Source: Vreelandella azerica
GTDB taxonomy: Bacteria > Pseudomonadota > Gammaproteobacteria > Pseudomonadales > Halomonadaceae
Length of the DNA stretch: 64,000 nt
Reading direction: 5' to 3'
Assembly: GCF_013112225.1 (NCBI RefSeq)
Contig: NZ_JABFHI010000002.1
Span: 558,001 to 622,000, forward strand
In this document: positions 2,723 through 13,182 of the stretch, piece by piece
How the letters are laid out: every line of letters starts with the position of its first letter
How positions within the stretch are numbered: the stretch's first letter is position 1
Translations under genes and position numbers: made by a program
Notes under the pieces: generated by a model
Databases searched by the model: none
Told to the model about the DNA's origin: nothing
What the model saw: only the letters and a program-made list of their open reading frames with translations

Positions 2723-2743
2723 CGGCAATTAACCCTCGGGTAG

Positions 2744-2783
2744 TGTAAGAGATCTCTTCAATTCTTGTAAGAGATCTCTTACA
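2744..2783 (+). promoter_or_regulatory. Tandem GacA-type upstream activating elements
   Basis: Positions 2766-2783 read TGTAAGAGATCTCTTACA, an 18-bp perfect palindrome that fits the Pseudomonas GacA box TGTAAG-N6-CTTACA exactly. A second copy at 2744-2761 (TGTAAGAGATCTCTTCAA) keeps the left half and core and degenerates at the end. The two centres are 22 bp apart, about two helical turns, so both would face the same side of the DNA. In Pseudomonas such boxes sit far upstream of rsmY/rsmZ. Here the palindrome centre is about 175 bp before the proposed RNA start. No protein gene on the + strand follows that they could serve. Confidence 0.82.
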
Positions 2784-2872
2784 AAAGGCGTAGAAATTAG
2801 CGCAAAAACAACTGTTTATCAGCCATAATGTAACAGTGTAGCTGGCAACTGATTGTTTTGGCATTGAATGTT

Positions 2873-2904
2873 ACACAAGGCGGGCCAAGCAGCCCGCCTT
2901 GTGT
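2873..2904 (+). terminator. Strong hairpin, probable eno terminator
   Basis: A perfect 13-bp inverted repeat (ACACAAGGCGGGC, loop CAAGCA, GCCCGCCTTGTGT) follows eno by 150 bases. The run after it is only ATTTTG, so termination may be imperfect. It separates the GacA-like boxes from the proposed small-RNA promoter; it could alternatively form the 5' part of a longer RNA. Confidence 0.6.
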
Positions 2905-2917
2905 ATTTTGGACGCCC

Positions 2918-2945
2918 TTGAGTCGCCAGATAAATCTGCCACAAT
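2918..2945 (+). promoter_or_regulatory. Candidate promoter of the RsmZ-like RNA
   Basis: TTGAGT (2918-2923) and CACAAT (2940-2945) are separated by 16 bp and match 4 of 6 bases at each sigma-70 hexamer. Transcription would start near 2951-2953, just before the first GGA motif. A weak core promoter is what one expects for an activator-dependent gene with the GacA boxes upstream. The assignment is inferred; an alternative CATAAT lies at 2824-2829. Confidence 0.45.
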
Positions 2946-2950
2946 GAATT

Positions 2951-3119
2951 TATGGACAAGGGGAGGCAAGGACGCTCTCGAGCAGGATGCAACGGGATAG
3001 TCAGGTACGCCGGGTGATATAGGGGGTGTTGGCCCCGGCAGGGAATGTACCTTTGGATGTTAGGCATAGGGAATGCCTGTGGACATGCTGGGAGCGGGCG
3101 GCCTACGGGCCGCTTTTTT
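2951..3119 (+). ncRNA. rsmZ: RsmZ/CsrB-type CsrA-sequestering small RNA
   Basis: The gap between eno and fdxA has no credible protein gene but ten GGA trinucleotides in 140 bases (at 2954, 2962, 2970, 2985, 2995, 3042, 3055, 3070, 3081, 3091). One is displayed ideally: GGCAT (3063-3067), loop AGGGA, ATGCC (3073-3077), the classic CsrA/RsmA recognition hairpin. The RNA would end at a GC hairpin with six T at 3114-3119, giving about 169 nt. Known rsmZ genes of Pseudomonas lie next to fdxA and are switched on by GacA; both features are seen here. The expected role is to bind and titrate CsrA (encoded at 12994), relieving translational repression. The 5' end is inferred. It could equally be named rsmY/csrB. 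Confidence 0.8.
3098..3119 (+). terminator. Rho-independent terminator of the RsmZ-like RNA
   Basis: GCGGCC (3098-3103), loop TACG, GGCCGC (3108-3113), then TTTTTT. The orientation is + strand, with no + strand protein gene between eno's own hairpin and this site, which supports an independent non-coding transcript. Confidence 0.88.
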
Positions 3120-3162
3120 GTGCGTGTAATAAACTTTTGAGTGACGTTTCTTTCAGTCGGCG

Positions 3163-3235: not shown

Positions 3236-3559
3236 CTAGCGTTCGAGCTTTTCCAGTTTGCCGGTCTTGCCATCCCATTCTTCTGCATCAGGTAGCGGGT
3301 CTTTTTTCTCGGCAATATTGGGCCACACCTCCGCCAGCTCGGCATTGAGTTCGATAAACTGCTCCTGGCCGTCGGGTAATTCATCCTCGGAAAAAATTGC
3401 CTCCGCAGGACATTCCGGCTCGCACAGGGCGCAGTCGATGCACTCATCAGGGTGAATGACGAGAAAGTTGGGGCCTTCGTAAAAACAGTCGACCGGGCAG
3501 ACTTCCACGCAGTCGGTATATTTGCATTGAATGCAATTTTCGGTCACGACAAACGTCAT
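3236..3559 (-). CDS. fdxA: Seven-iron ferredoxin FdxA
   Basis: A 107-aa 3Fe-4S/4Fe-4S ferredoxin of the Azotobacter FdI type, a cytosolic electron carrier. The N-terminal half has [17 protein letters not shown] and [12 protein letters not shown], giving one 3Fe-4S and one 4Fe-4S cluster. The acidic C-terminal tail ([20 protein letters not shown]) is typical of the family. Start ATG at 3559 follows a GAGGGA site; a longer reading of 6 residues is not supported. It is convergent with the RsmZ-like RNA, and mutS lies upstream in the opposite reading order, as in Pseudomonas. Confidence 0.96.
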
Positions 3560-12993: not shown

Positions 12994-13182
12994 ATGCTCA
13001 TTTTGACTCGCCGAGTCGGCGAAACCCTTATGATTGGTGATGACATTACAGTCACTGTACTGGGTGTCAAAGGTAATCAGGTGCGAATCGGTGTGAATGC
13101 ACCGAAGGATGTTTCTGTCCATCGTGAAGAAATATACCAGCGCATCCAGCGTGAACGTTCAGCTGACGTGAGCGATGAATAA
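12994..13182 (+). CDS. csrA: Carbon storage regulator CsrA/RsmA
   Basis: A small RNA-binding dimer (62 aa) that represses or stabilises mRNAs by binding GGA hairpins at ribosome sites. The sequence [16 protein letters not shown] is near-identical to the family; the [20 protein letters not shown] segment contains the RNA-contacting Arg/Val positions. Start ATG 12994 is set by AAGGAG at 12981-12986; a longer reading from 12919 has no support. Its ribosome site itself contains a GGA, compatible with autoregulation. The presumed antagonist, an RsmZ-like RNA, is encoded 9.9 kb upstream in this window. The 12803-12993 leader has a plausible TATATT near 12885. Confidence 0.97.

Follow-up and report, generated by a model that had tools for sequence, protein, structure and literature searches.

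The 64-kb window analysed here (64,000 nt of the Vreelandella azerica genome, to which all positions refer) carries, between eno and fdxA, a gap that contains two GacA-like boxes, the intrinsic terminator of eno, a putative promoter and a predicted RNA of the RsmZ type (Table 1). An earlier note, made from the letters of the window, had read this gap as an RsmZ/CsrB-type small RNA gene under a GacA box. Its coordinates for the elements of the gap were correct on recheck, the hairpin GGCAT-AGGGA-ATGCC is present, the terminator whose T-run ends at 3119 was recovered with a hairpin at approximately 3096–3115, and a csrA gene indeed starts at 12994. The ends of the RNA were set by a covariance model, and the 5′ ends from which distances were calculated were taken from models or from alignment.

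Table 1. Features in and around the eno–fdxA gap and their positions in the window
Feature	Position	Strand	Remarks
eno	ends at 2722	+	gap to fdxA begins here
Upstream GacA-like box, TGTAAGAGATCTCTTCAA	2744–2761		2 mismatches; centre ~200 bp before RNA 5′ end
Perfect GacA box, TGTAAGAGATCTCTTACA (TGTAAG-N6-CTTACA)	2766–2783		0 mismatches; centre 178 bp before RNA 5′ end
eno intrinsic terminator	2872–2905	+	14-bp stem, then TTTT; predicted fold and covariation
Putative promoter, TTGAGT-N16-CACAAT	2918–2945	+	alignment of relatives
RsmZ-type RNA, predicted to bind CsrA, ~169 nt, ten GGA	2953–3121	+	covariance model and GGA count
Hairpin GGCAU-AGGGA-AUGCC, GGA in loop	3063–3077	+	helix 4 of the consensus structure
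Intrinsic terminator of the RNA	3096–3121	+	terminator scan; helix 6 of the consensus structure
fdxA	3236–3559	-	convergent neighbour of the RNA
csrA	12994–13182	+	single copy in the genome search; presumed to act with the RNA

Conserved islands between eno and fdxA

A pattern scan confirmed the box reported in the earlier note, which matches the published GacA/UvrY consensus (PMC4950607, PMC4682653) without mismatch and is the only perfect GacA box of the window. The perfect motif occurs four times in the 3.42-Mb assembly, compared with no occurrence of a reversed-pattern control, even at one mismatch. Loose matches with up to three mismatches are not enriched in the window (10 found vs 15.0 expected), so that the weight rests on perfect and paired sites only. 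The second box, described previously as half-preserved, does lie 22 bp upstream, but it is not decaying: it is kept in all 22 aligned loci of the same genus (L086–L107, the window included, from 24 same-genus genomes with a BLAST match), invariably at exactly 22 bp and with 1–3 mismatches located mostly in its right half. Three same-genus genomes (G164, G168 and G138) do not keep a second box with at most two mismatches. The fixed spacing makes cooperative binding at the paired boxes plausible. MicroRNA-like Rfam matches over the boxes were discarded; they are below the gathering scores of the respective families and correspond to the inverted repeat that the two palindromes form.

The distance between the centre of the box and the 5′ end of the RNA, 178 bp in the window, is mostly 177–187 bp in the relatives, the shortest and longest values being 155 and 203 bp. 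In two loci (L092 and L093), the spacer is shorter by ~22 bp, placing the downstream box at 157–158 bp and the upstream box, with one mismatch in L093 and three in L092, at the 180-bp place. This shift points to a site at ~180 bp as the probable requirement, with a supporting role for another one at a distance of two turns. In L276 and L277, a single box is found at 155–156 bp.

Between the boxes and the promoter lies the terminator of eno, absent from the earlier note, which combines a strong fold with a covarying stem: in 21 same-genus sequences, double changes affect 9 of the 11 modelled pairs, and covariation amounts to 0.442 vs 0.238 in shuffled data. Farther downstream, the promoter-like CTTGAG and CTGCCACAATG are largely conserved, several relatives being one base off and L107 more, and a scan for the sigma-70 consensus did not detect the putative promoter at 2918–2945. 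When the 22 same-genus gaps are aligned, the two boxes, the eno terminator, the promoter-like site and the RNA stand out as islands in a drifting spacer. The earlier note had proposed a comparison of this kind.

The predicted RNA and its known counterparts

All ten GGA motifs listed in the earlier note were counted within 2953–3121, on the + strand, with none on the other strand. At least ten GGA are found in 30 of the 127,664 segments of 169 nt that cover both strands of the 64 kb, all 30 in the RNA cluster; measured against shuffles that preserve the dinucleotides of the RNA itself, ten GGA stand out only moderately (5.7 ± 1.6 expected; 10 reached in 13 of 2000). The stability of the single-sequence fold is unremarkable (z −1.09). 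BLAST with 2730–3130 yielded matches in 77 of 151 family genomes, many of the weaker ones covering a fragment of the terminator or box only. Among the 30 loci kept, eno is present in all and fdxA in 26, which was not found in the examined stretch of the other four. The consensus structure over 32 RNAs consists of 31 pairs, 11 of them with double changes, with 99.1% of the cells paired. Its covariation (0.336) exceeds that of shuffled (0.183 ± 0.008) and slid (at most 0.085) alignments, part of the signal being built in, since structure and covariation rest on one and the same alignment. In helix 4, three of the four pairs show double changes, and both sides of the stem vary in relatives; within the consensus, GGA occupies the loops of two hairpins with varying stems.

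A covariance model built from the aligned RNA sequences (R1; match threshold E 0.01) matches 171 of 201 family genomes, including 50 of 50 from the genus of the window. The RNA of the window, which belonged to the training set, scores 154 bits and is the one match of R1 in its own genome at E 0.01. Near three further box sites of this genome (L001, L003 and L004), no second Rsm RNA was apparent, since neither flank exceeds five GGA per 180 nt.

The comparison with Rfam models of RsmY, RsmZ and CsrB that the earlier note had put forward turned out negative for the gap, with no match to RsmZ, RsmY or any CsrB-type family; genome-wide, RF00166 has one match, located elsewhere and short of the gathering cut-off (13.1 bits, E 1.99). 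Rfam is also silent on all five named Halomonadaceae loci matched by R1 (L006, L009, L017, L022 and L041), and the same scan recognized RF00166 RsmZ in three of three Pseudomonas loci. In all three, RsmZ is downstream of and convergent with fdxA, in agreement with the earlier note. At the place of RsmZ, R1 itself produces weak matches in 5 of the 11 Pseudomonadaceae loci searched (E 0.0018–0.0044), to which only their position gives weight, given that an other-strand match in L017 (+ strand) scores equally (E 0.0018). One Marinomonas locus also has a weak R1 match at that place (E 7.7e-5). The Marinomonas loci include a perfect box at a distance of 475 bp from fdxA (M. algarum) and a weak R1 match next to fdxA (M. 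ushuaiensis; L071, L058), and rsmZ may extend beyond these families.

The resemblance to PrrB/RsmZ (RF00166) thus resides in the location beside and convergent with fdxA, in the same orientation, with a box 170–181 bp upstream in Pseudomonas (178, 181 and 170 bp in the three loci). Like the halophile RNA, Pseudomonas RsmZ is GGA-rich and ends in a terminator. The two differ in that the RNA described here does not match RF00166, is ~169 nt long compared with 119–134 nt for the three Pseudomonas matches, is preceded by eno, which was not detected in the 2.5 kb downstream of fdxA in the Pseudomonas loci, and, in the genus of the window, has two boxes 22 bp apart. CsrB and CsrC of Escherichia coli represent the same CsrA-titrating class but have other gene neighbours, and CsrB is about twice as long as the halophile RNA, which lacks a match to the CsrB family in Rfam. 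RsmY of Pseudomonas carries GGA motifs and shares the GacA box but, again, has no Rfam match in the gap. Published GacA/UvrY sites fall in the same range for rsmZ (−196 in P. aeruginosa; PMC4950607) and for csrB of E. coli, where an 18-bp palindrome is located far upstream, with a crosslinking/binding region from −222 to −142 (PMC4682653), whereas the rsmY site of P. aeruginosa is at −75 (PMC4950607), as opposed to approximately −178 here. Within the family, the closest known system is that of Halomonas anticariensis, in which GacS/GacA controls quorum sensing (PMC4187203); the difference is that the table of a 2020 review enters its sRNA as Unknown (PMC7366521), and the eno–fdxA RNA is a candidate for that entry.

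Taken together, the locus combines a position beside and convergent with fdxA, a GacA box at an rsmZ-like distance (178 bp), several GGA motifs, some of them in hairpin loops with conserved stems, a Rho-independent terminator at the 3′ end of the RNA, and GacA and CsrA encoded in the same genome. By its place, its convergence with fdxA and the distance of its box, the RNA is the positional counterpart of rsmZ and very probably belongs to the same functional class; given the negative Rfam check, it is RsmZ-type but lies outside RF00166 as modelled.

The RNA has been expanded in two genera. In the eno–fdxA gap of Cobetia amphilecti (L041), it measures ~719 nt and contains 39 GGA (3 on the other strand), with a box ~180 bp upstream of the assigned 5′ end; R1 matches the 3′ part of this longer RNA, such that the box is 722–724 bp from the R1 match in Cobetia. 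The gaps of two more Cobetia genomes (L267 and L268) also hold 39 GGA. In Larsenimonas suaedae (L022 6491–7211, − strand; the same as L265), the gap is occupied by four tandem RsmZ-like modules, each with 6–7 GGA and 55–74% identical to one another. The three sampled Larsenimonas genomes gave no GacA match, and the gap of L. suaedae has no box with at most two mismatches.

GacA, the box and the proposed circuit

The search for gacS and gacA in the rest of the genome, also proposed in the earlier note, yielded GacA and a candidate for GacS. GacA was identified by a match to NF007018 above the cut-off, next to a uvrC-like gene that follows it. No match to the sCache_4 domain, by which GacS was sought, was found in the genome, and the best BarA-like kinase was adopted as the candidate instead. 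This GacS-like protein of 900 aa, encoded between pdxJ-like and cysM-like genes (these neighbour identities, like that of uvrC, being read from the sequences), is a tripartite kinase of HisKA-HATPase-receiver-Hpt architecture, with a weak HAMP match below the Pfam cut-off; against the BarA model, it scores 613 bits, below the cut-off of 890 bits. CsrA was found in a single copy, the one encoded in the window.

Across the family, the box follows GacA. With GacA-negative defined solely by the lack of an NF007018 match at E 1e-50, 20 of 201 family genomes fall in this category, namely, G144 and 19 others, which make up the entire sample of seven genera. A box with at most two mismatches is found upstream of the RNA in 42 of 46 GacA-positive relatives vs none of 9 GacA-negative ones (Fisher p 1e-7, without phylogenetic correction), and the reversed-pattern control has one match in all 55 loci. 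The 55 loci, in which 500 bp upstream of the RNA were examined (1000 bp for two Cobetia), comprise 40 picked to spread over genera and 15 picked mostly because of a weak match or a GacA-negative genus; L086–L107 and a further 10 loci were analysed apart from these 55. The number of independent events is small, since the nine GacA-negative loci, eight of which are shown inside the eno–fdxA gap, come from only three genera, and the GacA-negative genera may represent few independent losses. The four GacA-positive relatives with no such box in the 500 bp all belong to genus g20. Genome-wide, exact boxes are present in 41 of 84 genomes with GacA and in none of 17 without it. The presence of the RNA itself does not track that of GacA, with R1 matches in 154 of 181 GacA-positive and 17 of 20 GacA-negative genomes. 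The 27 GacA-positive genomes without an R1 match belong to g4 (16 genomes) and to g3, g5 and g24. In g4, where GacA scores are lower, this applies to 16 of 18 genomes; another sRNA may be present in these g4, g3, g5 and g24 genomes. In two Salinicola loci (L007 and L018), the eno–fdxA gap is short (229 and 109 bp) and contains neither a box nor an R1 match.

A chance origin of the locus was ruled out by the rarity of the perfect box, covariation, the paired-box pattern, the GGA cluster and the association of the box with GacA. The computation established that the locus is conserved, structured and syntenic, that the boxes keep their spacing and that box and GacA occur together; from these results, we infer transcription, binding of GacA and of CsrA, and the physiological output. 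The gap very probably holds an unannotated RsmZ-type RNA gene that would be driven by GacA and would titrate CsrA, and the corresponding reading in the earlier note is supported by the syntenic covariation, the rsmZ-like place and distance, and the presence of GacA, a GacS-like kinase and CsrA. Under the proposed mechanism, the gap would constitute an independent gene for the small RNA, with phosphorylated GacA binding the box centred ~180 bp upstream, probably with the help of another dimer bound two helical turns farther upstream, at the neighbouring box. Bound GacA would activate the promoter at approximately 2918–2945, yielding an RNA of 169 nt that is predicted to end at its own terminator. 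The GGA motifs of this RNA, some of them displayed in the conserved hairpin loops, would bind CsrA dimers and draw CsrA off its target mRNAs, such that activity of GacS/GacA would relieve repression by CsrA.

Alternatives to this circuit concern each of its parts. The RNA could be processed from the eno transcript, as an sRNA derived from the 3′-UTR, with the boxes acting on something else. Such an origin would fit its location immediately after eno, in the same orientation, as well as the outcome of the sigma-70 scan, which gave no consensus promoter; however, a strong covarying terminator separates eno from the RNA, the promoter-like CTTGAG...CTGCCACAATG is largely conserved amid drifting spacer, and the distance to the box is mostly kept, so that we rank processing as the least probable of the alternatives. 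Slightly above it, yet still very improbable, is a main role of a genuine RNA other than CsrA titration, be it base-pairing with mRNAs or an action on the convergent fdxA, which is close by. Binding of CsrA is indeed a prediction, but the presence of ten GGA on one strand with none on the opposite one, the placement of GGA in two consensus hairpin loops with varying stems, and the GGA-rich expansions in Cobetia and Larsenimonas fit a CsrA sponge.

The remaining alternative retains the sponge and replaces its activator, the palindromes being bound by another regulator of the LuxR/FixJ type. Similar boxes occur at many other loci of the genus, one genome having as many as 19 tandem sites, whereas UvrY of E. 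coli acts most strongly, and by a wide margin, on csrB and csrC (PMC4682653); in addition, G144 has paired boxes without a detected GacA. Against this, the motif coincides with the published GacA/UvrY consensus, and the box tracks GacA both at the RNA loci (42/46 vs 0/9) and genome-wide (41/84 vs 0/17 for exact boxes), which leaves another regulator improbable, if a little less so than the two preceding alternatives.

A CsrA-titrating RNA controlled by GacA, the reading that we favour, is ordinary in principle and new in this family. In Halomonas, Gac regulates quorum sensing (PMC4187203) as well as, according to a review table, exopolysaccharide and biofilm (PMC7366521), and a 2026 preprint that modelled the CsrA of Halomonas hydrothermalis calls the regulated pathways uncharacterized (PMC12889724). 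We found no description of an eno–fdxA RNA in the Halomonas/Vreelandella literature covered, subscription journals being mostly outside its scope. The RNA is therefore offered as a concrete candidate for the missing sRNA link from GacS/GacA to CsrA in Halomonas-type bacteria, along with R1, a covariance model that matches most of the sampled family genomes. The genera without a GacA match, which keep the RNA without a box before it, amount to a natural experiment, and the pairing of boxes at 22 bp with one of them held ~180 bp from the RNA start provides a testable cis-regulatory rule. To a specialist, the paired boxes, the boxes linked to type VI secretion described below and the RNA expansions would be new.

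Paired boxes elsewhere in the genus

A pattern of 24 fixed positions, searched with at most three mismatches in 275 family genomes, retrieved paired boxes in 77 genomes, many of the sites being the RNA locus itself, and the reversed control occurred in none of the 275. Paired boxes are concentrated in the genus of the window (69 of 82 genomes vs 8 of 193 others). Among 98 distinct box sites, 14 were identified as the RNA by the terminator motif, and L231 is a fifteenth, coinciding by coordinates with the RNA of G160. At 22 of the 98, a gene of the type VI secretion system (T6SS; VgrG, PAAR, Hcp or TssB) starts within 600 bp downstream, as against none in 81 control loci, which span 988 kb and consist of the window plus 80 fdxA neighbourhoods; the 98 sites came from box searches rather than T6SS searches but are a non-random set, some having been picked as paired or core-sharing and some being near-copies within one genome (G186). 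The start of VgrG is 103–132 bp downstream of the box in 14 of 17 cases, and T6SS domains were confirmed for seven example sites. The boxes concerned, often paired or tripled at 22 bp, are situated ~100–400 bp before vgrG, PAAR, hcp or tssB (L193, L194, L196, L198–L201, L212, L215, L216, L220, L221 and L255–L257). Five further sites (L119, L120, L144, L145 and L211) have tssB ~1 kb downstream. No VgrG domain was detected in the V. azerica assembly (89.5% complete), and the T6SS link accordingly pertains to relatives only.

Direct targets of GacA besides sRNAs are not unheard of. In Acinetobacter, putative GacA sites of genes of interest have been tested by gel shift (PMC10746170); in E. coli, where csrB and csrC are by far the strongest targets, the effects of weaker UvrY sites on the tested genes were negligible or modest (PMC4682653). 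Control of the P. aeruginosa T6SS by Gac/Rsm was placed at the post-transcriptional level in a 2023 review (PMC10482370). We advance tentatively, at somewhat less than an even chance, a broader scenario for the genus, in which tandem boxes phased by two helical turns would confer cooperative, switch-like control by GacA, which would have gained direct protein-gene targets with them, above all T6SS genes, forming a feed-forward loop; elsewhere in the family, the RNA would have persisted after GacA was lost and, in one genus, would have been amplified. If so, GacA would, in T6SS-bearing relatives, both activate promoters and, via the RNA, free mRNAs from CsrA.

Several other box sites deserve mention. 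One same-genus genome (G121) contains 19 paired-box sites, some forming triplet arrays and several near contig ends, which are possibly repeats or a large regulon. Three sites in other genomes (L141, L208 and L140) have 10–11 GGA per 180 nt on one side, with no terminator in a simple scan. In V. azerica itself, paired GacA-like boxes are found in an A+T-rich stretch just upstream of a gene for an outer-membrane beta-barrel protein (L001 1501–1540, contig C8), and a perfect intergenic box precedes a gene resembling a polysaccharide epimerase/dehydratase (L003 1501–1518, C12:809552). Finally, in genus g21, a perfect box is located upstream of a PAS-GGDEF gene in two genomes (L207 and L209; domains checked for L207).
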